Shown here in pieces: positions 27,027 through 56,500 of a DNA stretch of 64,000 nt. Numbering within the stretch: position 1 is the stretch's first letter; every line of letters begins with the position of its first letter. The notes beneath the pieces are model-generated. The model was given only the letters and a program-made list of their open reading frames with translations, made no database searches and had not been told where the DNA came from. The position numbers and the translations under genes were made by a program. The DNA is from Ischnura elegans (Eukaryota; Arthropoda; Insecta; Odonata; Coenagrionidae). The stretch spans positions 17,254,744-17,318,743 of the forward strand of contig NC_060248.1 in assembly GCF_921293095.1 (NCBI RefSeq), read 5' to 3'.

Positions 27027-28372
27027 TTCTTGATTTTAGCTAAAATGTTTACATGAATTACATTACTCGGTGCTTATCGCGCTTCATTTGTTACATCAAC
27101 TCAAAAAATGGCGGTAACCAACGGGAAATTCGAATAATCTTCCGCAGCATGCTTCGAAACTGTGGTCCCGAATAGCCTCAAGTTAGTATTATCAGAGCTT
27201 CAAGTGACGTGAAAGTTCCTTTGCATAGGATCATTTAAAATTTACTTAATATTCGGTTGCTATACTTATTTTATCCATGATTGTCCGTTCTACTGATACG
27301 AACCAATGTATGTCAGAAATACACAGCTATTTTTTTTAGCGGATTCACTTTAATTTGCATCAAGCTTGAGAACATAATCGAATAATTGTTATATATTAAA
27401 GAAAAAATTGTGTAGGCGATAATACCCATGGTCGGCTATTTACTATTTTATTGATACAGCGGTATTTAATGCGCGATCGAAATCAGCAAACCCTAAAGTT
27501 TTTATTTCTAAAGAAAACTTGCAATTTTCCGCGATTATAAGCTTTTATTCCCGACCTAGGTTTCGATATTACTACATAATTATTAACATACAAAATAGTT
27601 CAAGTGTTTCTTTCAATATGAAAAATTCCACTCCATCACGCTGTTCTTCTAATTTTATCCTCAAGTTTTTGTTTAATTCGCCAGAAAATTGATATAATAT
27701 AAAGTTTCATTCAAAATACTTTTTATAGGTGGATTTTTTTTAGAATGTCCATACGACACTCAGCTTCACGGAAATGGCTCGCAAGGAAACTTAAGTGATA
27801 CGATTTTGCTCCTAGAGTATGGAACATCAACTGTAATTTGTCTCACTCCAGTACAGTTATAACTATTTAGATATTTGGATAGATCTGTTAAGTAATACGT
27901 AAACCTTAGTGAGGATATGCAGAGGTGAATGGCGCAAGAAAAGGAGACGCCTAAGAAGAGCCGATAAAAGGGAGAGAGATTGAGGTGTACAGTGAGTAAC
28001 GGAAAGGCTGGCGAAGAGTCGCTCTGTACGGCTAGGAGAGGTAAACTCTGAGGAAGAAATAGAGAGCATTAGATCGAGACATTTTTAATGCGGGTGTGAG
28101 AAATGTGAGATGGTCGGAGAGGAATATGAAGACGAAAGTTGTAGACAGGGCACGGAAAAGAGAGGTGGCCGCTGTAAGAGATAACTAATAGACTGAGGAT
28201 GCGGATGGACGGCGTGCTCTGAAGGACTGAAAAACATTTATTGGAATAACCGTAGTGTTTGTCCAGTGGCCCGGAAAGGCGGAAGTCCGTGGTTCCATTC
28301 CCAGTGCAGGGGTATTTTTTCTCGTGCTAATTAATGTGAGTTTCACCGTCGTCCCTGCGGCAGGATTGAATA
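27027..28372. other. upstream region of BCDIN3D-like gene
   Basis: Mostly AT-rich single-copy-looking sequence. The BCDIN3D-like promoter and 5' UTR should lie in the first few hundred bases, but I recognise no TATA or initiator with confidence. A purine-rich, GC-richer block (about 27900-28200) reads as broken frames with many Arg/Lys/Glu and may be old LINE-derived sequence. A tRNA-like B-box (GGTTCCATTCCC, about 28293-28304) suggests SINE debris. Confidence 0.4.
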
Positions 28373-29276
28373 GGGTAGTTTCCTTCATCAAAGAAAACGA
28401 AAGTCATTGATTGCGATTCGTTACCCACCATTAATGCATTCATAATATGCAAATTATTTTGTTTTAGAAATCCCAGTTTAGACGAATGTTAATGGTCAAT
28501 TTTAACCTCATTTGAAAAAGGCCAGATTGGCGCCCATGCGATGCCACTCCACGCGACGTCACAGTGACCAAGATGCTATACGAGTAGTCAGGAGTTTTAC
28601 ATCGTCTGAGATCAGGGACGCAGCTAGGAATGAAGGCTGGGGGGTTTAGGTGCAACTAATACCGGGGTGTGTGAGGGTATGGAATACCCACCAGGATAAG
28701 CGGTAGGTGCGAGATTAATTTTAAGTGCGGAATTTAAGGATTAATGGTTCAAAATGGTGAGTTTTACGGCTTTCTGAGGGATATCTTATTAATCCACACA
28801 ATATTCTATTAGTAATATCAATCCAATTAAGTGAAATGGATTAAAGTTAAAAATTTCTCTGAGCTCTGGGGGGGTTATCTCCCAAAACCCCCCTCCTCGC
28901 TGCGCCACTGCCTGAGATAACCAACGCATACATGTAGCACAGAGCTCAGGGAAACATCTCTTAATAATCACTTGTTAAAGTTGCCTACGGTCGGAAAGTT
29001 TCCTTCATTCGATTAGGTAATAATAATCCTTATTTACACAAAGCGCTACCTGCTAGCAGGGTACTCTGCTACCTGCTTGCAGCCTGCATCGTAGTGGCGC
29101 TCATAGCCTCGCACCAAGGTGGCCTCACACAGCGGAAGGACAGAACCAGAATGACGCCACACGGGCTTTTCCCAGCATTCATATTTAGCCGTCGCGTTTT
29201 CGCGCGCTTGAAAATTTTCACTTTTCATGTAATCGCAAAAAAATAGATATCGTCATTTATAAATCTAAAAGCGTGA
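28373..29276 (-). mobile_element. MITE family A, copy 1 (truncated, with hAT insertion)
   Basis: Reverse-oriented copy of the ~660-bp element at 29406 and 40298. Its terminal GGGTAGTTTCCTTCATC is at 28373, preceded by TA. The other end is lost at about 29276 in an ATA repeat, roughly 60 bp short of the terminus. A 298-bp hAT-like element is inserted at 28613-28910. After removing it, the copy aligns with the others along its length. Confidence 0.8.
28613..28910. mobile_element. hAT-like MITE (family B), copy 1
   Basis: The ends CAGGGACGCAGCTAGG and CCTCGCTGCGCCACTG form an imperfect inverted repeat. An 8-bp duplication with one mismatch flanks it (TCTGAGAT and CCTGAGAT), placed exactly where the host MITE copy is interrupted. 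298 bp, no ORF of note. It contains a run of seven G's facing CCCCCC near the right end. Confidence 0.8.
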
Positions 29277-29405
29277 AATAATAATAATAATATTTATTGT
29301 TCTTGGACAAAATTGTCCATTAAGAACATAAAAGATATTACAAAATAAACTTGTACAAAATATATGAGATATTTCCGAATGGAACTTAGCACAACTAAAT
29401 AAATA
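29277..29405. other. spacer between two MITE A copies
   Basis: AT-rich 129 bp starting with an ATA repeat and containing TTCTTGGACAAAATTGTCC followed by AAGAAC, a small inverted repeat. It may be the tail of another insertion that truncated copy 1. Confidence 0.35.
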
Positions 29406-30064
29406 GGGTGATTTCCTATTTCTTTTTTATTGCCTAAATAGAAATATTATTACTCCTGGAGTACGTATTTCACGCTTTTAGATTTTTAAATGACGATACC
29501 TATTTTTCGCGATTAAATGAAAAGTGAAAATTTTCAAGCGCGCTAAAACGCGACGCGTAAGTAGGAATGATGGTAAAAAGTCCGTGCGACGCATTTCTGG
29601 TTCCCCCTCCCGCCTTGTGAGGTGACCTTGATCGAGGCTCTGAGCGCTGATACGACGCAGGATGCTAGCGGGTAGCTGAGTACCTTGCTGGCTGGTAGCG
29701 CTTGGCTTAAAAAAGGTTTATTAATAGCTTATCAACCAAAGAAAGCTTTCCGACCTAAGCCAGTTTTAATAGGTGATTATTAACACATGTTTCCCTGAGC
29801 TCTGTGCCTCATGCATGCATTGGTAACCTCAGACGATGTATAACTCCTATTCTCGTTTAGAAACTAGGTCCCTGTGACGTCACGCGGAGTGGAATTGCAT
29901 GGGCGCCAATCTGGACTTTTTCAAATGAGGATAAAATTTGACCCTTGCCATTCGTCAAAACCGGTATTTCAAAAACCAAATAATTTGTGTATTATGAATA
30001 CACTAATGGTGAGTAACGAATCGCAATCAATGCCTTTCGTTTTCTTTGATGAAGGAAACTACCC
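29406..30064 (+). mobile_element. MITE family A, copy 2 (complete, 659 bp)
   Basis: It begins GGGTGATTTCCTATT and ends GGAAACTACCC, flanked by TA on both sides. It aligns along its whole length with 40298-40958 and, reversed, with 28373-29276. It carries a palindromic TGACGTCA at 29875-29882 and AGGTGACCTTGA (reverse TCAAGGTCACCT). No transposase. TA flanks suggest a Tc1/mariner/pogo-type autonomous partner. Confidence 0.85.
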
Positions 30065-31403
30065 TATTGTTTACTATATTCGTAATAATACCATGTATTG
30101 CATGCGGAAAGGCGAAATAATGGGAATATGCCGTTGGCATATGAAATGGGGACACCAGCCTTTGTTACCTTTCCCACATTGAACTCCGTATTTTATTCTG
30201 AATAAAAGCCTATTTGAATGAAATTATACAACTTTTGTAACTTTCCGCAAATTATTATTAGGTACGGTGCGTTTCGACGTTTAGGCGTCATTTTCGAGTA
30301 CCTACGCCTTAGCATCGAAACGCGTCGTACGTCTGTGAAAATTTATAAAGGTTGTAATATACCTTCATTCAGCATGAATGTTCACCAAGTGAAAGCCGAA
30401 TCGATCGATTTCAAAGCTTACTTTTGGCGTTCAGGCCCAGTGGACCGCACGACGTCAAAAACAAAGTTCGCCACTCTTCTCTTCTTCTGGCCACTTCTCT
30501 TCAATCATTCCGGCCCTCCATTCGTTTGCAGAGCTTCCGTTATGTTATCCATCCACCTTTTCTTCAGTCTTCATCTTGGTTTTCATCCTTTCGGGACCAT
30601 AGAATCGGCTAATTTAGGATATATTTCGTTTTCATCCGTTCCACATGATATTTCATTACTCCATCCTCATCTATCTAATCATATCTATATATCTCATATC
30701 TAAAAATCTATCCAATCTCCTCCCTTGTTATAATCCCACTGTCGCATTGGCCCCAGGGGCGCAGCTTGGGAGGGAGGGTTAAGGCACAGCTAATTCTGGG
30801 TATTTAAAAGGGTATGGAATGCCCGCCAGGGTAAGCGAGAGAGGCGGGTCCCTCCCACAGAAATGTTTCAGGATAAATGGTTCAAAATAGTTATTTTTAC
30901 GGCTTTCGGAGGTACCATAAACCAGGATAACTTTGCCTAAGTGGGACAACTTTGCCAGGTTTTGAAAAATATTGTTTGGTGCCCTACTAAGTTCCCTATA
31001 ACTATCCAAGAAAGGGCCTATGTTTTCATCACACCGAAAAGATATTGAGTGATATACTTTCCACACATTTGTAATCCTACGAGTTTTTTGCAGGTCTTTA
31101 TTAGTGTTTTGTTTTCGTCGCGCCAAAATGAATATTTTGGTAGGCTATTCAAAGTGTCTCGCCCTGCCCATTTTCTCAAACGAAAGTAAAAACTTCTGGT
31201 ATCGTTCAATGGAGCATATAATTTACTTTCAGAATCGCTTTAAATGGTAAAATGTATGCTGTACTTATGTTTAATAATGTAACTTGGTAATGTTGCACCA
31301 GGAAGCGTGGTGGAAAGGTGACAACTTTGCCAACTGACAATATTGTTATTTTTCAAATTCTAGCACACTTTTTCCTAAGGGTGCGTTTTTCATATTCGTT
31401 TTA

Positions 31404-32110
31404 TTGACCGTTCAGATGCCAAGACCCTCTAATATCAAGTTGGGAGGCCGCAGGTATCAAAATTATGATGACACTACGCTGCAACTTGCTGTCACTGCAG
31501 TGATTAATAATGAAATGGGCAGTGGAAAAGCAGCCCTGAAATATAATATTCCACATAGGACCATAGGGTGGTTTCCTGTAATTTTTTTATTGCCTAAATC
31601 GAAAGATTATTACTCCGAGAGTACGTATTTCACGCTTTAAGATTTTTAAATGACAATATATATATTTCGCAATTAAATGAAAAGTGAAAATTTTCAAGCG
31701 CACGAAAACGCGACGGCTAAGTATGAATGCTGGGAAAACTCCATGTGACGTCGTTCTGGTTCCCGCTGACGCAAGTGAGGTGACCTTGGGGCGAGGCTTT
31801 GAGCGCTGATTGATTCGTTTTGTTCTTACACCATCGTCCAATCATTTATGACAACCTTTTGATGTTTCAGAGTTCGCTCATTGTAAAAAATAAATGGAGA
31901 GCCATTCTGACGTACTATAAATTGTGGAACTTTAATAGTTATAAAAATCTCGAAAATAGAGCATTTAAAACGATTTTGGCAAAAATTCTCAGTGCTTTGG
32001 ATGAAGGAGGTAAAATGTACTCAAACCTCACATCAGGATTCGAGGAATATGGCCGTGCCGCTAAATCCCAAAGAAGTTTAGTCTTGAATTCCGTGTGCAT
32101 AGAAAACTGA
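31404..32110 (+). pseudogene. broken pogo-type transposase
   Basis: The N-terminal piece (about 31418-31570) reads GGRRYQNYDDTTLQLAVTAV... then GSGKAALKYNIPHRTI, the psq/pogo-type helix-turn-helix. The later piece (about 31877-32080) reads NKWRAILTYYKL...LSALDEG...NLTSGFEEYGR, the C-terminal end of the DDE domain in pogo relatives. The two are separated by a MITE A fragment and the catalytic DDE core between them is not found, so no active enzyme is encoded. Confidence 0.65.
31566..31810 (+). mobile_element. MITE family A, 5' fragment inside pogo-like element
   Basis: It starts GGGTGGTTTCCTG after TA, then follows the family A sequence through the AAGTGAAAATTTTCAAGCGC segment to AGCGCTGAT, where homology stops. 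The right end is absent, by internal deletion or partial loss together with host sequence. Confidence 0.75.
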
Positions 32111-33112
32111 TCGTAATAACACTCCTACAAGAGTGAGTGCTTCATTTTTGAATTATCATCAAGCCTGTTGCCGTAATCCAAACAAAAGTTCGCCATAGAG
32201 AAGAAGACGGAAAATTAATGAGGCTCCAGGATAAACCATGGAAAAATCACACTTGATCACTTCCAAGCACCTCCACACAGAATCATATTGGAGGAACTTG
32301 TAAATAGAAGAAAAATTATGGGCGTAACCATATTATATTATGTTCAGTGTTTTAAGTTTCTGTGTGTACCTTTCTATATTTAAGAGTTTTCTAAGTTTAA
32401 ATTATTTATTCCATTGCTTTATCGAGGTTTCCGCTGGATATAACTCCGTTGGCAAAGTTGCCCCAGTTCCAGAGAATCTTTGCCAACTATGTTTTCAATT
32501 TTTCTAACGTATAAACTTTTACTCAAGCTGTAATTTTTTCACACATGTTGAAAGTAGAGACCAAGAGTAATGGATGATAATGGTTTTAAATCATTGTCGT
32601 ACATGAACTTACAAGAATGCAGTTGAAAAAGAAAAAAAGTGGCAAAGTTGTCCCGGTTTACGGTATATTTGATTGATATTTACACTATTCTGTAAGTAAT
32701 ACTAATCCATTAAAGTAAAATGGATTAAACTTAAAAAATTATCTGAGTCCTCAGGGGGGTTTTATCCCCCAAAACCCCTCCTCGCTGCGCCAATGATTGG
32801 CCCATTAAAGATTATATAGTTACTGATTTTGACGTTTACTCCTTACTTCATCCGGACAGGACCATATATTTTACTAGCATAAGAACCCGCCTCCCAAAAA
32901 TTAGTAGTTTGCTCAAGTCTTGTTTCCTTGATCTCCAGCTTTGGCAACCATACGGAACTAGATAGATAATAATTAAGTATTGGCAGCGAATGATAAAGCA
33001 ATAACCAAATCATTAATTGGTAATTAATTTCTTCCAAGTTGCGCTAAAAAGTATTATGTTTTTAAAACGGGGAATTCGATGGTGGCTTTACAGCCCGGGG
33101 TGAGCCCCTCGC

Positions 33113-33319
33113 CAGGGGCGGATCCAGGATATCTTTCTGGCGGGGCACTAGCAAGGCCATACCCAGGATTTTATTCTGGGGGGGGGGGCACAAGGATACC
33201 TCGTAATACAAAATGAGCGCAATGAAATTGGTACTGTATTAAAAATCTTGCATATTTTTTAAGGGTCTGGGGGGGGGGGGGCGTGCCCTCGTGCCATCCT
33301 CCCCCTAGATCCGCCTATG
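33113..33319. mobile_element. hAT-like MITE (family X), complete copy
   Basis: The ends CAGGGGCGGATCCAGG and CCTAGATCCGCCTATG form an imperfect inverted repeat. 8-bp flanks CCCCTCGC and CCGCTCGC differ at one base. It contains two G-runs (9 and 12 long). 207 bp, no ORF. Confidence 0.75.
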
Positions 33320-33479
33320 CCGCTCGCAAACAACGCCATTTCTGTATTCCTTACCATCGCAAAACCGCTCCTTCACCTGCGCAATTATGCGCCTTATTTT
33401 TTTTGTTTCTGTTTATATTTGTATACTACGCCATTAAACAAATGATATGCTTCACCAGCATTAAATTGTGATTTCTCAT

Positions 33480-33860
33480 TCATCATCATCATTGATCTCT
33501 TCGCCACAGGTTAACACGGGATTTTGGAGATTATTCGCTTCTTACTTTCGCTGGAAATCACGTTAATGATATCCATATTTTTGTTTCCGTTGCATTTTCG
33601 GTCGTCCCTTTTACCACTGTCTCTTTCACATTCTTCATAAACTGTTCTATATTTTACACCTAAGGTCACCTATTTCACACCTTTTGCCATTCTTCACGTC
33701 CACTTGGCCTTGATGATTGTCTTCATCAGACGATTACGCGGCTGATTAAGTTCGCCATTCTTCTAAGTTTTAAGAAGAATTCTCTTATTTCTCAATCCAA
33801 TCGAGTCACTTATTATCATGTTTAATCCCGTTTCCTTTGTCCAGGCGCACGCCATGACCT
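33480..33860 (-). mobile_element. decayed RTE-like LINE 3' fragment
   Basis: The reverse strand contains GATGAAGACAATCATCAAGG followed by CCAAGTGGACG, a match to the conserved coding segment seen at 39549-40100 and 53579-53790. It ends in a CATCATCATCATTGA repeat like the tail of that copy. No open frame survives. Confidence 0.5.
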
Positions 33861-35469
33861 TAATTTCGGTTTAGTTTATCTTCATTCAGTATTTTCCGCA
33901 TTCCTTATCCACCACATATCCACCGATTAGAGATCTTTCCATCGAGCGCAGCTCATGCGGCAGCGGGGACGGAGGTAGGGAGCTGAAGGGGTTCAAACCC
34001 CCCGAAATGCTTCCCCTCTCTTAATGTCCCCTCCGCCAGAATCGTTTGCCTAGTACACAGCCGCTTAACGATTCTCCAGTGGATGTATAAATTATATGTT
34101 TTAGTCTTTGTCATCCTCAAACTCGTCTTTGATCGTACACGTGGAACTTCATCTATGGATCTCCGGTATAATCTAAGCATATCAACGTGAAATGGATGCT
34201 ACCCGATACAAGGATACTCGATACAAGTGCTTCTCGAATTTCACAAGACCTCTTCTTAATCAATTCTGCTCTTTAAATAACGAGTTTTGGCTATAAATAA
34301 GCCCATTATCGACCGGAAAATATGCGCTTCAAGGTATTGCCTAACGAATGAGTGAGAGAGATAGTCTTTTAGTCAATAAGCTCTTCCTTATCTAAGCTAT
34401 TACATAAACGTATGGACGTTCGCTGTTCGGCAACAAGGAAATTCGCTAATTTTTAAAGTTTTACCCCATAATTAAGCATACACAACTATTTGCCAGCTCG
34501 TGTTGATATTCATGTTGACATTTTACTCAAACGATAACGGTGGAAATTTGGCCGATGTAGGAGACTTTCATCAGATTAATGGTTCTCATGAACTTTTATA
34601 GGTTCTCCTTTTAGAAATACAGACATAAGCCATTTTCTTGCACTCCGATGGCTCCGTGGTATGATCGTATTATACTTAGAGATAGTGGTGATGGCGCATT
34701 TAATTGAACGATGTTACGTATATTTGCACGTTCTGGGCCACGCGGTAGTTATCTTGGTTATTTTTCTTTCGGTGACGTTGCATTGAAATTATTCATATTT
34801 CATATTTTGAAAAAATAAACTTTTCAGATACAAAATGGAGTTTCTCCTTGGCCAAATTAAACTTTGAAAACGGATCGGTGAGATGACTGACAGGAGTTTT
34901 ACGTCAGAGACACAGTAGAAATAGTAAAAAAATGTAAATTTTTGCAAAGAAAGCATCCAATTAAACGAGGTTAATATTTTCATGGTCATATGGCTCCTGT
35001 ATAACGAAAAAATGTATTATGTCAACCCTATACGAGCAAAACTGCAGTTATAATGAGTTCTGCCTAAATGCCGGCATACACTATCGTCCAGTGCCGAAGG
35101 GATACTGTTATTTCGCGGTCGAGATATACATTATTTTTCTCCCATCTAACCGATCTCCTTACGACGGTGAAATCAGCCCCAGCTTATAACATAATTTTTA
35201 CTCCTGCAAATTTTTCGTAATTCGATCTGGTAAAGAATTTAATCGCAGGGGCGGAGATTCTAATAAATGAGTGATAATAGAATCTGGAAATTGGATATGT
35301 CGGTGTGGAGGTAATTTAACAAGAATGAGTCTCACTCGTTATTTTCTTTGAATTTGCTCTTTAAGAACGCAAAATTCTGTCAGTCATAAGTGCAACCCTT
35401 CTTCTGAAGCATGTCAGTCAGACAAGTAACTATTAACAGGTTTATTTAAGAATAATAATCGTGATGATT
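33861..35469. other. intergenic sequence
   Basis: AT-rich, with short GC-richer blocks. A GGGGTTCAAACCCC motif near 33989 resembles a tRNA T-arm, but no acceptor or D-arm partner is present. I find no gene here. Confidence 0.4.
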
Positions 35470-35925
35470 GTATTCTACCTATTGAGGTAGATTTCCATGG
35501 AGTATTTAAGAAGTATTCTGGCAGTTTCCCCTCACTTCATGGACTGCTTGTCACGTTAACAATTAAGTCTACTTCCTTTCATTTAGGTAATCTAAAAATC
35601 CTTTTCAACTACTTCCTCTCTTTCTCTCTCGCTTACCCAACATTCTACCCTCCAACACTGTTTTCAACATCTCCTCCTCCCCTCAGAACTTGCTCTATCC
35701 ATACCTTCTGTCTCCTCCTTATGTAGAAGCTGCCTCTCTTCACCAGCCATGTCCAGCGCTTCGTCGTTCTTCCTCCTCTCCGTCCACTTCACCTTCACCA
35801 TTCTTTTCCAGACCCGCATCTCGAACGACTCCAGTCTTCTCTTGTCCTCCTTCCTTAGATATATGTATGTTTCCGCACCGTAAAGCGCTACGCTCCATAT
35901 CACACTCTTCGATAAACGATGGTAA
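35470..35925 (-). mobile_element. RT-family-1 LINE, 3' fragment
   Basis: The minus strand encodes the C-terminal end SVIWSVALYGAET..LRKEDKRRLESFEM, then KVKWTERRKNDEALDMAGEERQLL with stops, and ends with the 3' UTR ACTCCATGGAAATCTACCTC. That end matches the 3' end of the copy at 38215-38255. A 5'-truncated inverted copy. Confidence 0.8.
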
Positions 35926-36374
35926 ATAACCAGAGAATTTTCAGATTTTTTCATGGATGACTTCAATTCGAAGAAAAGTGGTCATAATCGAGAAAATTAC
36001 CCAGAATCGTTTCTTGACTGCACTCATTTTGGAACATATTCAACTTGGTATGAATATGGAACCAAATTTGACTCATACATTGGTAAAAAAAATGGTCAAT
36101 TGAAAATATGTAGTTGTGGAGATAGATGGAGAAAGTGAGATGCATGATAAGAAGAAACAATGAGAGTAATATGCTATACAATGATAAACCAATTACAAAA
36201 TGATGCCGAATGGGTTAAGGTTTTAATTGATATGGTTTTAACGAGAATTATAACGGATTTCAGGTATTTTATTTCTGGAATTAATATTTACGCAGCAGCT
36301 TTACTTTTGAGTAAAAACTAGATAAATTATAATATTATCAATTTATATTTTAAAATGGAATAAAATATTGTTGG

Positions 36375-38268
36375 TTGATATTAAACACAGAACAGGGCAA
36401 AAGAATGTATAGATTAATTAATAATCGATTACGGCGTGAAACAAAGAGAGCAAGGGAGGCTTGGTGGAAAAGACAGTGTGAGGAAATGGAAAAGTTTCGG
36501 AAGGAAGGAGAGGTAGGCGCGTTATATGCCAAAGTTAAGTCGCTATCGGGCGGCAAAAGAGGACAAGCCATATCTAAAATTTAGGCTAAAGATGGGAGGA
36601 TGCTAACCGAGCGAGAAGAGGTACAGAGTCCATGAAAGGAATACGTGGAGGATCTTTATAATGGAAGAAACAGGCCGGAGAGATTGAATTTTGAGGATGA
36701 AAGTGCAGTCGAGGAGGATAATCTTGGGCCGGGGATATTAGATTCGGAAATAGAGAGAGCACTTCGTGATATGAAGGCTAGGAAAGCAGTAGGCGTGGAC
36801 AATATACCGTGTGAGCTTCTGAAGAATCTAGGGAAGGAAGGTAAGAAAAGGTTTTTCGAACTAGTGCGCAGGATCTATGAGGAGGGATGTTGGCCGGAGG
36901 ATTTCGTGAAGACGGTTTTAATTCCGCTTCCGAAAAAGAAGAAAGCTGTGGAATGCGGAGATTATAGGACTATCAACCTAATATCGCATGCGGCGAAAGT
37001 GGTACTGAGGATATTGAACAAATGAATGGAGGCGAGGGCAAACGAGTATTTGGGAGAAGATCAGTTTGGTTTCAGAAGAGGGAAGTCAACTCGTGGTGCA
37101 ATAGCAATAATGAGGTCCCTCGTGGAGAGGAACCTAGAATATGAGCAGGACGTATATGCGTGTTTCGTTGATTTTGAAAAAGCGTTTGATAGGGTGAACT
37201 GGGTAAAGTTAATGGATATCCCCAAGAGAATAGGTGTAGATTGGAGGGATAGACGACTGATTCGTAATCTGTATATGGCCCAGACTGCGCAAGTGAGGGT
37301 AGCGGACGGAGAATCTGGGTGGGCAAGCATTGGCCGAGTTGTGAGGCAAGTCTGTCCTCTTATCACCGCTGCTCTTTAACGTGTACGCTGAAGAGATGGT
37401 AAGGGAAGCGTGGGATGAGTTAGAAGCTGGAATAAAAGTGGGAGGAATGATGTTCAAATCAGTGAGATTCGCGGATGATCAGGCGTTGATTAGCCAGTCA
37501 GCGAGGGGGCTTCAGGCTCCAGTGGATGCGCTATACGAGCGTTGCGGGGAGTATGGGATGAGGATTAATCACAAGAAGACTAAGGTAATGCGGTTTTGTA
37601 AAGCATCACGAGCGAGGAATGTGAGACTCAAGATAAAGGTGGGTGGTGAAAAACTTGAGCAGGTTGAGCAATTCAACTATTTAGGCAGTACGTTAGATAA
37701 AAACGGATACAGTAGTAAGGACATCAGGAAGAGAAGGAGGCGTTAGCGAAGGAGGCGTTCATGAACAGGAAAGAGCTTCTGAGAGGATCGTTATGTAGGA
37801 GTCTAAAGAAAAGGTTGGTGAAGAGTTTGATTTGGATTGTAGCTCTCTACGGTGCGGAAACGTGGACACTGAGGAAAGAAGACGAGAGAAGATTGGAGGC
37901 ATTCGAGATGTGGGTATGGAGAAGAATGGAGAGGGTGAAATGGACGGAGAGGAAAAGGAACGACGAAGTGCTGGATATGGTTGGCGAGGAAAGGCAGCTT
38001 TTAGATGAGATACGGAGGAGACTGAAGGTATGGATGGAGTTAGCGCTTAGCGGTAAGGGGATGTTGAAAATGGTGTTAGAGGGTAGAATTTTGGGGAAAC
38101 GAGGGCGGGGAAGGAAAAGAATAGGATTTTTAGATAGATTGAAAGAGAGTAGGCCTAACAGTGAATTAAAGAAGGCAGTGCTGGAAGGAAAGGGAGGCTC
38201 CCAGATCACTTCTTGAATACTCCATGGAAACCTACCTTAATCGGTAGAATACTATAATAATAATAATT
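36375..38268 (+). pseudogene. RT-family-1 LINE with broken reverse transcriptase
   Basis: Successive frames read as one non-LTR retrotransposon: a coiled RRETKRAREAWWKRQCEE segment, AVGVDNIPCELLKN, an LIPLPKKKK region, QFGFRRGKSTRGA, the RT motif ACFVDFEKAFDRVNW with its Asp, VRQVCPL, then FADDQALISQ (the YADD-box equivalent), GMRINHKKTKVMRF, QFNYLGSTL and the C-terminal WIVALYGAETWTLRKEDERRLEAFEM...GRGRKRIGF. At least four stops (near 36582, 36634, 37023, 37744) and one frameshift (near 37370) break it. The endonuclease domain is missing, so it is 5'-truncated. The 3' end has an (ATA)n tail. It is RTE/BovB-like in its C-terminus; the clade is uncertain. Confidence 0.85.
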
Positions 38269-38445
38269 ACTTTAGATAATCTGCGTAGCAATTGGCCTCA
38301 ATTTGATGCGTAGATAACTTCAGAGGAAGCAATATTTATTGTACACCAAAGTTTGAAGAAAATATTAGTATTAAATTAATGAGTTCGCCGTGGGACTTCC
38401 ATGAATGAGGAGCTGAATATAATGCATAATACATGCTCCTTCTCC

Positions 38446-39222
38446 CAGTAGCGGATGAAAAAAAAACTCGCTGAGGGCACAAAAGATACCTTGAGTTACC
38501 TTTACTTTTATCGTAATAAAATATCCAAGTACGTGCGAAGTTTCAGAAAGTTTTAATTGAAGTTATTGTACGCACGTACAAGACAATGCTATCTTAAGAC
38601 ATAAAAAAGTTACATTTGTGGTTCTGCAATTTTCGGCAGTTTGGCAAAATAATCTGAGGGGTGTAAGTTGGAGCAAGAATTTTCTTTTCCGTCTAATAGT
38701 AATAGACTTCAGTCTAACCTCAAGTGTAAATATCTCAGGAGCGGCAAGCGGCGGTAACTACTTTCATCCTAGCATTAGGTAAAAAATTAACGAAAAACGG
38801 TGATATTTTTAACAAATCATTAAGTTAATAAAAATACAATTGACTTTAACAAAAGTTCGCTTTTGATTAATTAAAAGAATATCACTATCAATAATCATCC
38901 TCAAGAATTCCAAATTATTAATTGTATTTTATTGCTTGGGCACAAACACTGAACATTTTTGTAAAAATCGCGCACTCAAGTTTTCATAGATTTTATTGAT
39001 TTTTGGCTAGCTATAAAAATTGCATAATTATTTAAAAAAATTAACTCCAGTTTTAGTCGTACATGCCCTGGAAGTTCTAAAATGATGATATATTATTCCC
39101 GGTGCGTGTTGAAAAAGTCGATATTTTGATTTTTGGCCAGATTTTTTCGATTTCAGCCCACTGTGGGGCGGCCCTGAAAGGTGGGGGAGGGGGCGCCCCC
39201 CTTCAATATGTATCCGCCGCTG
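38446..39222. mobile_element. non-autonomous hAT-like element (family C), 777 bp
   Basis: The ends CAGTAGCGGATG and (reverse) CAGCGGCGGATAC are flanked by a perfect 8-bp duplication CCTTCTCC (38438-38445 and 39223-39230). The left part shares GGCACAAAAGATACCTTGAG with a reversed fragment at 41510-41647. No transposase. Confidence 0.82.
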
Positions 39223-39548
39223 CCTTCTCCAGAAGTTGAGGCCAAAAGGCATGGTTGTAGAGATCACTTGGTCGGTCAAATGCCCTCCACACGGATCATT
39301 ACATTAGCCCTCAACAAAATCGGAGTAATTTAGCTGAATTCCAGTGCAGGCGAGGCAGAGTGTTAAACATAAAAATGGCATATGACACAAGTGCGATTGA
39401 AGATTTTATTCGCGAACTTCGTGAAAATATTTCTTCTTGCGTCGGAGTGCAAGCAAAGATGTTTCGCCAATAGAGTATAACAGTACCATAACATTTATTC
39501 TGTAAGATATAAGCTCAAAATCAACAAAAGTAAGATTAATATATTAGT

Positions 39549-40100
39549 ATGCAGCAAAAGAGAGGAGGCTATGAGACACACCTTAAACAAAAAAAACAAA
39601 AGCTTGAAGAGGTGAAGGAGTTTGGTCGCCTAGGAAGCCGAATTACCAATGATGGACGAAGAAAGAAAGAAATGGTCACTGGAACAGTACAGCCAAGGAA
39701 GGCTTTTTACGAGAAAAAGAATCTACTTACAGCTGAAAATACAAGCATAGAAGAGAGGAACACAATTCATTAGATTCCACATAAGAGCGATTTCCTCTAT
39801 GGGAGGGAGGCTTGGGCGTTGATAAGTGCAGAGAAGTCAAGAGTGGAAGCATTCGAAATGTGGTGCTACCGAAGAATGATGAAGATAAAATGGATTGACC
39901 GTGTGAGTAACGAGGAAGAGTTAGAAGAGTGGGAGAAAAGAGAAGCCTCCTGAAAATCTTAAGCAGAAGACGGGAAAACTTAGTTGGCCACATTTTGAGT
40001 CATGATGGCCTGATGAAGACAATCGTAAAAGGACAAGTGGAAGGGACAAAGGGCAAGGGACGGCCCCGAATGAGTTACATAGTACAGGTTATAAAGGAAG
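39549..40100 (+). mobile_element. RTE-like LINE family 2, 3' coding fragment
   Basis: Frames with stops read KLEEVKEFGRLGSRITNDGR..KAFYEKKNLLTAENTSIEERNT, then broken LYGREAW-like and FEMWCYRRMMKIKWIDRVS segments, then LLKILSRRRENLVGHILSHDGLMKTIVKGQVEGTKGKGRPRMSYI. This order is the conserved C-terminus of RTE-type LINE polyproteins. The RT core is absent. Confidence 0.75.
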
Positions 40101-40297
40101 TATTACGATTTATTTCATCCAAATTCTTTAAATGAATAATATTTTTATCTACGCATATAATGTTGCTATTAAATTGAAAATTTGACTCAGTTTCAATAAA
40201 ACAATTTTAAACTTCATTCCATTTTTCGTTACAATAATTTTGAATTTACAAAGCGATATTATCAACAATATCAAAAATGTAAGTTTTTACAACAATA

Positions 40298-40958
40298 GGG
40301 TGGTTTCCTATTATTTTTTTATTGCCTAAATCGAAAGATTATTACTCCTGGAGTACGTATTTCACGCTTTTAAATTTTTAAATGATGATATCTATTTTTC
40401 GCGATTAAATGAAAAGTGAAAATTTTCAAGCGCGCGAAAACGCGACGCGTAAGTAGGAATGATGGGAAAAAAGTCCGTGTGACGCATTTCTGGTTCCTCC
40501 TCCCGCCTTGTGAGGTGACCTTGGAGAGGCTCTGAATGCTGATACGACGCAGGATGCTAGCGGGTAGCTGAGTACCATGCTATCTGGTAGCGCTTGGCTT
40601 AAAAAAGGTTTATTAATACCTTATCAAACGAAGAAAACTTTCCGACCTTAGCCAGTTTTAATAGGTTATTATTAAGACATGTTCCCCTGAGCTCTGTGCC
40701 TCTTGCATGCATTGGTAACCTCAGACGATGTATAACTCCTATCCTCTCGTGTAGAAACTAGGTCCCTGTGACGTCACGTGGAGTGGCATCGCATGGGCGC
40801 CAATCTGGCCTTTTTCAAATGAGGATAAAATTTGGCCCTTGCCATTCGTCTAAACCGGTATTTCTAAAACCAAATAATTTGTGTATTATGAATACACTAA
40901 TGGTGGGTAACGAATCGCAATCAATGCCTTTCGTTTTCTTCGATGAAGGAAACTACCC
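40298..40958 (+). mobile_element. MITE family A, copy 3 (complete, 661 bp)
   Basis: It runs from GGGTGGTTTCCTATT to GGAAACTACCC with TA on both sides and aligns end to end with 29406-30064. It holds TGACGTCA at 40769-40776 and AGGTGACCTTGG. Its left flank and the far inverted end at 41466 can also be read as a larger composite element (see findings). Confidence 0.87.
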
Positions 40959-41324
40959 TATTGTTGTAATTATGCAAAAAAATGAAATTTCGAAGGAAAA
41001 ATTGAAAAAAGTAATAGTAATATACGTATATTTAAATAAAATTATGTTTACACGTGATCATTTCACTGATGTGGAAACAATGAAACGTTGAATTTCCTGT
41101 CAGAAAATCTGTAAAAAAATTTAGTTCCTTGATTGGAAGTTGCCACAAACTTTGTCTTTATGGCATGTTTAATGTCGAATGTATTTTTCTGGTTAGTACG
41201 TTCTAATAGCAACTGTAAAAATTAATAGTATTTATTTAATGGAAATTTTATTACCTTCATGGTTTTTTGGTATGAAAATCCTTGAAGCATTCGGGTATAT
41301 GAAGGGCAACACAGCACTGCAGTT

Positions 41325-41466
41325 TTCGCGCGCTTGAAAATTTTCACTTTTCATTTAATCGCGAAAAATAGATATCGTCATTTAAAAATCTAGGAGCGTG
41401 AAATGCGTACTCCAGGATTAATAGTCTTTCGATTTAGGCAATAAAAAGAATAACAGGAAACCACCC
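41325..41466 (-). mobile_element. MITE family A, inverted left-end fragment
   Basis: The reverse complement of the first ~140 bp of family A, ending in GGAAACCACCC followed by TA. It faces copy 3, giving a 1,169-bp interval (40298-41466) bounded by long inverted repeats. Confidence 0.8.
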
Positions 41467-50500: not shown

Positions 50501-53500
50501 TTAGGTTCATGCATTGGGAGTAATGAGTCAGAGTCATTGAGAGAAATCTGGCTTGAAAAATGTTATGACTAAGAATTTCAAAGGAGGTAATTGCAAGTGA
50601 AGTGGCTGAGTATTAACCAAGTGTAATCATCAGTGCATGGAATTATTTTGCATTTTAGTTATTCTCGTTGCATAGAATAAATTATAGTGACATGCAATTA
50701 CGACTGCTTTAGATATAACTCGCAGTCCTTGGCTAGCTTTGCTTTCACAGTTGAGTTTTTATATCTAAATGGTTGGCAATAGGTGGCGTAATGTTACTTT
50801 CCAATCTAACTCACTCTCTGGTGCAGTCGTTAAAGTTACACAGCTAGTTACACATTATCGCATAGTCATTCAGGCACAAATTTTTAGTTGACAGGGAATT
50901 CATGTTTTACGAGGTTCTTGATTACTCTTTTTGTTATTTCTCAGTTTTCAAACATTTATCAAAAACAGTGAATTTTCTCAGTAAAAAATGTTATTTTCTT
51001 AATTCTCCTTTTTCATATTTATTTTCCAATGTAGTCATTGAACTAATGGCCATATTTCTCCGAATATAGTCCCCCCCCCCCTAATTTTGAGGCTTCAGTT
51101 TCCAGAAAAGTTAAAAAAATGCGTTTGAATATAGTCCTCCCCTTTACCATGGGCATTTTTGGAAAAAAAGGGGGGACTATATTAAGACACATACAGTAAT
51201 GCCTATTTGTTATTTTGCCTTATTTTGCAGTAAATTTTGATTTTTTAATGCAGTCTGGGTTATTGATGTGGCCAATATGCTCATAGCGTATTATCGCTTT
51301 TCAATTTTAATATTTCTCTGAAACCTGAAATTTTTTTCCTTTACATGAAACTACCTACCATTGAAAATGAAGGGAAATTTCTCAAATGTGTAGAGTTGAT
51401 TTGAACCCTGCTAAGTTGAATTTGGAAAAATTCAGATCGCATTAAAAATTATTCAAGGTAGTTAAATCATTGAATTAATAGTATATTGGCAATCAGTCTT
51501 GCACAGAAAAAATGCCCAAGTATCAAGGCTCCCACTCATTTGTGAAAACCTTAAAACCGTGAATAAGCTGTGAGTTTCATCTGTTCTGAAAAAACCTGGA
51601 AAAAGCCGTGAATTTTGTCATAAAACCTAAAAAATATCTCAAACTTGGTTATTTAACTACGATTGACAAATCAAAAGAAAAGTCGATATGTCGATAATCT
51701 TTCAAGGTCAGTCACGTGCAGACAGTGTCCACGCATGTATCTGCACGAGTATATTCAAAGCGCAATTATTGGTCCGTGTGTCATGAAGCCGGAAGACCAG
51801 TGACCAAAATGTTCATAACCCTGGCAAAAATTCAGACACTTCTTAACTTCCCAGCCACCCTGCTCCCTCCATTTGCCCACTCACAACCTTTAGCCAGCCC
51901 TGAATTACGTTAACGATAGGTGATATCAAGGTGTAATTGGCCGAGGTGTGAGGCAAAGCTGTCCTCTATTAGTGCTGCTTTTTAACGTATACGCTGAGTA
52001 GATGGTAAGAGAAGCATGGGACGAGTTGGAGTGAAAGTGGGAGGAATGATGTGAAAATAGTTAAGGTTGGCGGATGATCAGGCCCTGATTAGCCAGTCAG
52101 TGAGGGGACTGCAGGCTTTAGTGGATGCGTTAGACAAGCGGTGTGAGGAGTATGGGATGAGGATTAATCACAAGAAGACAAAAGTAATGCGGTTTTGTAA
52201 AGCATCGCGAGCGAGGAATGTGGGACTCAAGATAAAAGTAGGGGGGGAAAAACTTGAGCAGGTAGAGCAGTTCAACTATTTGGGCAGCACATTAGAGGAA
52301 AACGGATACAGTAGCAAGGACATCAGGAAGCGAATTCTGCTGGCAAAGGAGGCGTTCATGAACAGGAAGGAGCTTCTGAGAGGATCGTTATGTAGGAGTC
52401 TAATGAAAAGGTTGGTGAAGAGTTTGATTTGGATTGTAGCTCTCTACGGTGCGGAAACGTGGACACTGAGGAAAGAAGACGAGAGAAGATTGGAGGCATT
52501 CGAGATGTGGGTATGGAGAAGAATGGAGAAGGTGAAATGGACGGAGAGGAAAAGTAACGACGAAGTGCTGGATATGGTTGGCGAGGAAAGGCAGCTTTTA
52601 GATGAGATACGGAGGAGACAGAAGGTATGGATGGGAGTAGTACTTAGCAGGGAGGGAATGTTGAAAATGGTGTTATAGGGTAGAATGTTAGGGTTAGGAG
52701 TGAGGGGAAGGAAAAGAATAGGATTTTTAGACAGATTGAAAGGGAGTAGGCCTTACAGTGAATTGAAGAAGGCAGTGCTGGAAGGAAAGGGACGGTCCCA
52801 GATCACTTCTTTTGTACTACATGGAAACCTACCTTAATTATTAGATACTTTCATCGCTGCATCTGCATTCTTGCATCTGTTGTGTTTATTAAATTTTTAG
52901 TTAATATGTGGCTGTAGATTATCATGTGTTCAATATTTCTGCCTTAAATGGCTCATCGGGAGACTGTGATTTTTATAATTTTATCAGAGTGAGGAGCATG
53001 AAATACTCATTATAATTTGTGTAAGGATGCCAATGTTGATTAATTGGTAGTAGTTCCATCTGAGTCTTGGATTCTCATAGATTCACCATAAATGTTATGT
53101 ACTGCTTCAATATTTTCGGGAAGAAAACGGTAAAATTTTGCTGAAAACCTGTGAATGGGAAAACATTGATCAACAAACCAGTGGATCACCATTTGCCAAG
53201 GATAATAATAAAAACTACAATTTTCTACTACATTGCCTATTCGGAAAACTATAAACTGTTGTGGAGATTATCAGATTTCTATGTCCCACCCCTCAAGTGT
53301 GTGCCTCGGAGTGTGATTCTATAAAAAAAAACAAAGGAAGGGATTTTGAGGGTTAGGTTATTGGCCACTGCTTGAATGCATGGCTCTGTTCAAATTTGCC
53401 ACCAGTTCACCCTCTGCATTTTATCTGACATTTTGACATTAAAGACTTTTGGAACGTAGAGTCCTACTGATTTCCTCTCCTTGGGATATATTTGATGAAT

Positions 53501-56500
53501 GAAATTGGGAGGATTGTGCCTTTTTAGTAAATCAGACCTTTCATTGGATTAATATGAGAGAGGTGACGGAATTTTCCGCATCATCATCATTAGTCAACAA
53601 TCCTAAGATTGGTTTGATGCAGCTCTCCATTCCTCTCTCCTATCCTCTAGCCTTTTCATAGCAGCGTATTTCTTCTGTTTTGCATCCTTTGTAGCCTGAC
53701 CTATGTAACTCATTTTGGGGCTGTCCCTTGCCCTTCATCCGTTCCACCTGTCCGTCTACGATTGTTTTCATCAGGCCGTCATGTCTCATAATGTAGCCAA
53801 TTTAACAACAATGTAGTGTTTATGATATTGGAGTATAGGTCATGATAAATAAAATACACATTTGGCCAACGTTTCGGAGATTTATTCTCCTTCCTCAGGG
53901 CTCTTAATTATAATGAATGTTTACAAAGAAAATAAAGAAAATAAATTAATTAAGTGGTTACAAAAATTTTGAATACAATTGTGCAGTACAAATTCATTGG
54001 TAAATTAAAAATTGCATTGCACACAAAATTTCTAACACGCAAAGCAGACTTCTGTACACAAAAATAAAATCAGAAACCCCAAAAAAACTAAAAAGTAACA
54101 TAATATACCACATACCATGCCTCGATTGTAATAGTTGTTACATTGGTCAAACTTCTCAATATTTAAAAAACCGAATATCCCAGCACAAATCATCAATAAA
54201 AAATAAAATCACTCTTTCTGCTCTTGCAAATCACAGTCTAGACTATAGCCATCATTTTGATTTCGAGAACACCAAAATTTTAGACATAGAAACCAATTTT
54301 AAGAAAAGATTATTTAAAGAAATGTTTTACATATCAAAATCAAATAACAGTTGCAATAAAAGATCGGACATAGAACACCTAAGTAAAATTTATTATTATT
54401 TAATTCATCGAAATTAAAATTGTTTAGTATAATTTAGATACCATTTGTTAACAAATGAATCAATATTTATAAGTAACCATGATTAGCCTAGTAACGAAAC
54501 TTTTCTATCACAGGTATGTTGTTTAATTCTGTTCACAATTTTTAATTTACCAATGAATTTGTACTGCACAATTGTATTCAAAATTTTTGTAACCACTTAA
54601 TTAATTTATTTTCTTTATTTTCTTTGTAAACATTCATTATAATTAAGAGCCCTGAGGAAGGAGAATAAATCTCCGAAACGTTGGCCAAATGTGTATTTTA
54701 TTTATCATGACCTATACTCCAAGATCATAAACACTACATTGTTGTAATAATAAGGAAGGTCAGGAGAAGTAACTTTATTCATTGTAGCCAATTTAGTTGT
54801 CCTGTCTTCTGCTTAAGGTTTTTAGAAGAGTTTCTTTTCTTCAATTCTTCTCAGCACTTCCTCGTTACTTACACGGTCAATCCATTTTATCATCAACTAG
54901 GGAGATGAATTATTAATGACAAAACTCATGGTTTTGACATCACAAAAGATCTTAGTATGCGTGGAAGAATCCAAAGAGCATGGAAAGATGTGCAATACAT
55001 TGTAACACCCTGAGATGGAGGTTTAAAAAAATTGAAGGAATTGTATGGATTCCTAGTGGATGAGATTCCTATATCCACTCCAAAATCACTTGCCTGGTAT
55101 TCATTCATTTATAGTGTTGAAATCCTAAGATTCCCCCCATACTGCAGGCCTCCATTTCCTCATCCTTTGCCCCCCAGTTCCTTGACCCCCCTGAGGCTCT
55201 TCTCCCACATATCTTTCTCGATCAAGAAGGTCCCTTCGTCCTCTTATAGGGACTTCTCCATCAATATTTCCTTTCAATATGTTGCCCATGTAAGAGATTT
55301 GTCTCATTAGAGGTTTATCCACAGTTTTCTTTGTAATACAGTGATGCTTAGTGCCCTTTCTTTTCATATTTTTGTATTTGCCTTGTTTACCACCCTATCC
55401 ATCCATTTCATCTTAAGCATCCTCCTTCAGCACCATTTGTCTCAGGCCTGTGATTCTTTTCTGACCAATTTTTCCAATGGTCCAAACTTCTGAACCATAG
55501 TGTGCTACTGCCAACAGGAATGTTTTCAAATACTATTTCTTGGTTATCAATCTTGTGTTCCTTGTGTATATTAAATGCCCTACTTGACAATGATATTCAA
55601 CATGTATTAGCGTTAAAAGGTTGATGATGTAAAGGGAAAAAAACTGGAGCATAGAGCTTTACAATGGAACAAAGAAAAGGGAACATCAGAAGTCATGAAA
55701 GGCAAGTGTTCAAAAGAAAAAAAATATAGTGGCTGGAAGAAGACATTGATGGCAAAATAGGGCATAGCTAAGATAGGTTGAGGAGTTACTATGTAGTTAG
55801 AATGGAAGCATCAAAGATATAAAAGTTCTGAATCTCAGGAAAATTGATAAAAGAGAAACGAAGGAACTTTGATGTAGAGCATAGCAGGAAGATATATGAC
55901 AAAGTGAACAACAAGCAATAATTGAAACAGTGGGGTGAAAGAACGTAGTTTATAGGACAGTGTGCTAAATGGTAAAGGCTGTAAAGTAGAAGGGTGGTAA
56001 GAACACTTTGAACTAAGTTGAAAATGTTATCGTTGCAAAAAGAGGATCAATGATAACATAAGTGACAAGATGGCTGAAGATTCTGAATGATAATGGAAGT
56101 CTGAGAATTGACCAAGAGAATTGACTGAGCTAATACATATAGGAAGAAAGCTCTGCAGTTGATAATCATATTTTGCTAGAGGTTCTTGATATGGAAATAG
56201 AGCTGAACTCTGCTCCTTAAGCATAAAGTATGTGGAATCTTTATGACATTAGAAACGACTTAAGATGGATAGGAAAGGAAAGAGTTGTGTGACTATAATC
56301 CATTGAATTTTAAAAGATGGATTTGTCTGCGTGGTGTCTTGAAAAAAAAGTTTTAATTCCAATTACCGAAACAGAGCAATGGAGTGAGGCTAAAGGACTG
56401 TCATTCCAATTTGTCATGTGGCTACATATGTTATGATGACAGATAACCAACAGAATGAAGTCAGCTTAATGGTGATGAAAACATAGTAGTTAGGTGCCTG

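Follow-up and report, generated by a model that had tools for sequence, protein, structure and literature searches.

Among the closest known counterparts of the insertion studied here are Pen2 and Pen2a of Adineta vaga. In the excerpted text of PMC3846280 these elements have, like our copy, inverted pLTRs of ~200 bp, a 31-bp tail on one of them and a short target duplication; also as here, 5′-truncated members lie within inverted 212-bp pLTRs and one insertion went into a retrotransposon with a known relative. The same excerpts favour self-priming on an antisense template. A second counterpart is Poseidon of Anolis carolinensis (PAc), which in the excerpted text of PMC11167929 resembles our element in combining a reverse transcriptase with a GIY-YIG domain and in having two start sites that bound the tail. 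In vitro, according to these excerpts, PAc cuts and extends both target strands with a preference for ATT, and the steps after the first extension are left unproven.

For the insertion route of Penelope-like elements, and for their inverted pLTRs and odd tail, self-priming was favoured in a 2013 paper, and a 2024 paper left the steps beyond the first extension unproven. Here we analyse a window of 64,000 nucleotides from Ischnura elegans (NC_060248.1, positions 17,254,744 to 17,318,743) that holds one such insertion, together with its sister copies across the host genome. Among the openly licensed papers searched, none was found to state that each insertion has one tail, to offer the double-primed reading or to report the target polarity described below.

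Materials and Methods

The host genome (1.72 Gb, 110 contigs; the window lies on contig C3) was searched with three parts of the window copy. The arm query gave at least 47 matches (40 of 427 first-look candidates scored), which were grouped into 36 loci, window included; this is set 1, and its query did not contain the tail. Set 2 consists of 19 tail-query loci additional to those already collected and, being selected by the tail, informs only on the tailless second end. Set 3 holds four near-full copies. An out-of-sample set of 13 head-to-head endonuclease pairs was taken from the endonuclease-fragment matches (at least 150 matches; 150 of 11,687 candidates scored) and was chosen before the ends were seen; ten of these pairs belong to family 1 and three to a second family, after removal of an apparent duplicate and of two pairs that set 1 already contained. 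The second family is about 70% alike in the endonuclease, and five short copies of it, which came from a query holding part of the tail, were added along with one full-length copy. The ruler for all family-1 comparisons was sister copy L044, on which the reference ends at 2957. Informative cells are sites where variants occur in at least two elements.

Results and Discussion

The initial annotation of the window described a Penelope-like insertion whose 210-bp inverted arms differ by about one mismatch, with a GIY-YIG fragment in the middle, an extra 37-bp tail confined to the right side and a target duplication of 13 bp. All of these features were recovered (Table 1), the arms differing as inverted copies at a single position, 53827. 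The unduplicated middle contains the truncated C-terminal coding end and a 3′ untranslated part; the first codons of the open frame lie within the left arm, and sister copies match the frame from residue 5 on. Elsewhere in the window, the arm, middle and tail gave only weak short matches. Dozens of host-genome loci have this layout, and therefore it is not a product of chance.

Table 1. Coordinates of the insertion, its parts and its target repeat within the window.
Feature	Position	Strand	Basis or remark
Whole insertion plus both target duplications	53792-54795		
Insertion itself, inside a repeat	53805-54782		
Left copy of the 13-bp target duplication, TGTAGCCAATTTA	53792..53804		Exact direct repeat; single site in paralogue 39880-40098
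Left arm, tailless, read as N-start cDNA, 210 nt	53805..54014	-	209/210 complementary to 54536-54745; outer end within the family's N interval
Unduplicated middle, read as inner part of the longer T-start cDNA	54015..54535	+	Aligns to reference copy L044 from position 2193 onward
Open frame, 137 aa, stop codon included; GIY-YIG endonuclease domain, 5′-truncated	54004..54417	+	Pfam PF01541, E 1.4e-7
Right arm, sense orientation	54536..54745	+	Inverted copy of left arm
37-bp tail, start site N to start site T	54746..54782	+	Right side only
Right copy of the target duplication, TGTAGCCAATTTA	54783..54795		Exact repeat of left copy
G adjoining the duplication on the tail side	54796	+	Base after the putative nick priming the tailless strand
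Minimal hammerhead-like motif, right arm	54649..54686	+	Inverted copy in left arm, 53864-53901; core CTGAGGA, hairpin, GAAAC
Target-repeat paralogue without the insertion	39880..40098	-	~84% alike to the flanks

The insertion had further been proposed to be recent and to split a LINE copy whose pre-insertion site is known. The recent date is supported, and so is the empty site, as the paralogue aligns unbroken across the joined flanks. The LINE label is likely but weakly shown: the split repeat gave one tblastn match, of 20 aa at 45% identity (E 9e-5), to the C-terminal part of the reverse-transcriptase frame 52061-52675. An RVT_1 match lies within that frame, and a LINE-type reverse-transcriptase region is present in the window in two copies, 37425-38045 and 52024-52642, which are 87 to 96% alike (two pieces reported). 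At 28369-41447, repeats of 40-220 bp that are 76 to 96% alike cluster in both direct and inverted orientation.

Sister copies in the host genome, where the initial annotation had suggested looking for full-length copies, include ones with a reverse transcriptase. In L044 an 840-aa frame matches both RVT_1 (E 8.4e-8) and GIY-YIG (E 1e-6), which bears out the Penelope-like identity; we take the motifs of this reverse transcriptase to resemble those of Penelope and telomerase. In family 2, L068 matches RVT_1 at 7.1e-8, its GIY-YIG match (E 1.9e-4, 22.1 bits) falling just below the 22.6 cut-off. The window copy keeps the GIY-YIG part only, the reverse transcriptase part being absent, and it is a young, 5′-truncated Penelope-like retrotransposon, a known kind of element, cut short inside its endonuclease-coding end. 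Solved structures included no relative of the GIY-YIG fragment or of the 840-aa protein, and a viral collection gave one distant GIY-YIG frame, apparently not from a Penelope-like element. Inverted arms and a target duplication are also what a fold-back DNA transposon with terminal inverted repeats would leave, the reading that the initial annotation had reserved for full-length relatives with a DDE transposase or without a reverse transcriptase. The sister copies carry reverse transcriptase and GIY-YIG in a single frame, their arms differ in length and the tail always makes one end the longer, and we give a fold-back transposon practically no credence.

In the full copies L064 and L065 the order is direct pLTR, tail, 42 bp, reading frame and pLTR, so that in the full-length L065 the tail is situated between the 5′ pLTR and the frame. 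The tail measures 37 bp in the window copy and about 40 in family 2, and the target duplication is short and variable (13 bp in the window copy, mostly 12-13 across the family). The hammerhead-like motif has GCC/GGC closing pairs in its predicted fold and lacks helix III; a similar motif occurs in family 2. An Rfam search gave no hammerhead match up to E 10, only three chance-level matches. A hammerhead-like core without helix III has been described for Penelope-like elements (PMC6155905, in excerpt), and the hammerhead of PAc likewise lacks stem III (PMC11167929, in excerpt).

Several sister copies have arrangements of their own. Eleven loci (L045, L048, L050, L051, L052, L054, L057, L059, L061, L062 and L063) are copies of ~290 bp with a break at ruler position 2823 in both arms, to which 2660-2690 is fused in some; they form a non-autonomous derivative family, and some are almost perfect palindromes. 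Head-to-tail arrays were seen in family 2, with three matches each: L069 (G000:C6:85308263-85312563), a member of a tandem of 3003-bp units, has its matches 3003 bp apart, and in G000:C4:30722509-30728764 they are about 2996 bp apart. Around 3965, L014 reads on beyond T into what comes after the tail in full copies and is therefore part of a tandem or longer unit. Four full copies (L066, L067, G000:C3:138853909 and C4:134289968) are near-identical, with flanks common to L066 and L067 (the two read), and all but one are found no more than ~0.6 Mb from a contig end (C7, C3, C6), as if such copies had spread via end-region duplication.

The outer ends of the insertions fall at two fixed places. 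In the 40 two-armed family-1 copies, 40 outer ends lie at reference 2908-2927 (N, tailless) and 40 at 2950-2957 (T, tailed) with none between, two narrow intervals ~37 nt apart. Moreover, the two are paired: at 59 of 78 loci an N end is combined with a T end and a target duplication, T+T and N+N were found at none, and the remaining 19 are atypical or without a clear N+T pair. In set 1, two arms of >25 bp are present at 24 of 36 loci, and all 24 have exactly one tail and a 12-15 bp duplication around both arms. A Fisher test of duplication against two arms (24/24 vs 2/12, P 2.6e-7) is a weak comparison, since its comparison class is mixed (L014) and several stretches are short. In set 2, 16 of the 19 loci show both ends and all 16 carry one tail, as expected of a set chosen by its tail; 14 are two-armed, L049 has an 18-bp tailless arm recognised by eye, and the other end of L060 is L101. 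Set 3 gave one N and one T end in 2/4 copies, L066 and L067 sharing flanks and having no clear second arm. The out-of-sample pairs were N+T in 11/13 cases, with duplications of 12-17 bp and no T+T or N+N; in the other two, C2:137829567 joins T to a start ~39 nt before N, with a duplication, and C4:34021131, which lacks a duplication, combines T on the right with a left arm whose end is at reference 2685. All six further family-2 copies were N+T (duplications 12-14 bp). The one-sided tail, reported by the initial annotation as a peculiarity, is the rule in this genome. By comparison, the excerpts of PMC3846280 call the tail 'optionally present' in Adineta vaga, whereas it sits at exactly one end in 59/59 N+T pairs here.

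Several loci depart from this pattern. Four loci have a duplication with one typical and one atypical end (L027, L055 and C2:137829567, T plus other; L040, N plus other), in L058 and L060 the start lies ~10 nt inside the N interval, and L044, L065 and L018 contain extra internal inverted or repeated pieces that go beyond a simple two-cDNA model.

Penelope-like copies are numerous, with 427 first-look arm candidates, and opposite copies might thus have been juxtaposed by two independent insertions or by later recombination. In all 59 pairs, however, the two arms lie within a single duplication, the duplications of the 40 aligned family-1 copies all differ from each other, and the two arms share variants. 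The two arms of an element carry the same variant in 19 of 23 informative cells, whereas 500 mispairings gave 8% agreement on average and 31% at most. Such juxtaposition is therefore a reading we regard as exceedingly improbable; the shared variants indicate instead that both arms were copied from RNA of one source.

Inner ends behave differently from outer ends. Of the 24 two-armed set-1 copies, 10 have the longer reach in the T arm and 11 in the N arm, while in 3 the two are within 15 nt. Fixed outer ends combined with widely variable inner ends point to the arms being two independent cDNAs, and a 'pLTR' length taken from one inverted pair is then the length of the shorter cDNA only. The initial annotation had treated the inverted pLTRs as a unit, a view that the fixed outer and variable inner points of the sister-copy arms do not support; the 210 bp of the window copy would be merely the length of its shorter cDNA.

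Self-priming, in which the inner end of one cDNA or antisense RNA folds back and primes an outward copy of the same strand, was put forward for rotifer Penelope elements in the excerpts of PMC3846280 to account for head-to-head arms with palindromes at the joint, and the near-equal arms of 3/24 copies together with the many short copies would suit it. A self-copied arm, however, is always the shorter and cannot hold sequence that the longer strand lacks. In 11/24 copies it is the shorter arm only that carries the tail, which excludes self-copying there from a sense or an antisense template alike. Nor does self-priming predict a fixed tailless end or one tail per insertion. Overall we judge it very unlikely. 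In contrast to the inverted repeats of Adineta vaga, ascribed to self-priming in those excerpts, the arms here have variable inner ends and duplications of mostly 12-13 bp.

The combination of fixed outer and variable inner ends would also be expected if run-off copying acted on antisense transcripts whose 5′ ends lie at either N or T, the outer ends being template ends; bidirectional promoters are suggested in the excerpted PMC3846280. Run-off leaves unexplained why each insertion has one N and one T, how the outer ends are spread through microhomology with the target, and the target polarity described below, and in the excerpts of PMC11167929 the anole element starts, rather than stops, at the tail borders. 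We consider run-off very unlikely.

Inner joints were examined in 27 cases. Nine of them are direct, and each of these overlaps by 1-3 nt (mean 2.33 vs 0.84 for random joints, P 0.0013). The other 18 have apparent inserts, some seemingly copied from nearby and others possibly mismatches to the ruler. To judge from their sequence, these joints resemble products of microhomology-mediated end joining. Inversion and target duplication are also the products of L1 twin priming, in which both strands prime, and both would be expected if the same process had acted here on a single RNA. The two cDNAs of L1 twin priming cover adjacent RNA segments, whereas the arms here are overlapping copies of one segment from nearly the same start; an L1-type origin seems to us more doubtful still than run-off.

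The target sites are informative as to how the two strands are cut. Duplications in the 40 family-1 copies measure 12 bp in 22, 13 bp in 10, 14 bp in 4, 11 bp in 2, and 15 and 9 bp in one each, which would fit a fixed 12-bp stagger with chance or microhomology at the ends. In the first 22 clean 12-bp cases, the base next to the duplication on the tail side, immediately beyond the putative N-priming nick, is G in 16, against 6.2 expected when the selection of clean cases is allowed for (P 2e-5). At the mirror position, beyond the putative T-priming nick, a G on the other strand is found in 6/22. This rule was noticed on those 22 sites, and its validation is limited to ten more sites, drawn from family 2 and the out-of-sample pairs, one of which (C2:137829567) is without a standard N end; there the counts are 10/10 and 6/10. 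Pooled, they are 26/32 vs 12/32, with discordant sites 16 against 2 (P 0.0013). Inside, the sites are mirror-like, with A at position 4 in 20/32 and T at position 9 in 23/32. The window copy agrees with the rule by its G at 54796; having a 13-bp duplication, it is outside the 32 counted. The polarity of G at the nicks implies that the target decides which side receives the tail.

We therefore return to two cDNAs from one RNA source and propose that the window copy was inserted by double target-primed reverse transcription of a 5′-truncated Penelope-like element, a reading to which we give a probability of about three in four. The double priming itself we infer, from the fixed ends, variable inner joints, single tail, shared variants and polarity that can be read in the copies. 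The element's protein would cut both target strands, with nicks 12 bp apart, and each 3′ end would prime its own cDNA on element RNA of one source. One cDNA would begin at start site N and the other at T, ~37 nt further along the RNA, thereby adding the tail. Each would extend to an independent length (in the window copy, 210 nt for the N cDNA and about 768 nt for the T cDNA), after which the facing cDNA ends would be joined, often with short microhomology or filler, and gap filling would leave the duplication.

As to the order of events, the simplest reading would be that the G-flanked nick comes first and primes N, T then being the free start site for the second strand. For Penelope-like elements we tentatively favour an ordered, asymmetric double cut by an endonuclease that would act as a dimer on an AT-rich, quasi-palindromic site: the G-flanked half-site would prime N, the partner nick 12 bp away would then prime T as the only free start, and the inverted pLTRs would be the overlap of two cDNAs, with no element module behind them. 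In both families (window 54706-54765; L069:3330-3400, minus strand) GACCTA.ACTCC precedes N and GGTCA follows it (in the window, then GGAG). Pairing of these segments over start site N is conceivable; RNA folds spanning N and T were no stronger than those of shuffled sequences. According to the excerpts of PMC11167929, the PAc start sites in vitro showed no difference between the strands, in contrast to the strict N+T pairing of the genomic insertions here, with their G-flanked nick on the tailless side. Strict alternation is therefore not a feature of the assay as those excerpts present it.

Conclusions

The kind of element found in the window is known, and apart from the pLTR label the initial annotation described it well; the worth of this copy lies in what its sister copies reveal about mechanism. 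One young insertion with a known empty site, taken together with these copies, provides sharp rules to which every proposed mechanism has to conform: an N end paired with a T end, a 12-bp stagger, a one-sided G-flanked nick, shared variants and microhomology joints. These rules can be checked wherever a genome carries elements of this kind, and also with the in vitro system already published.
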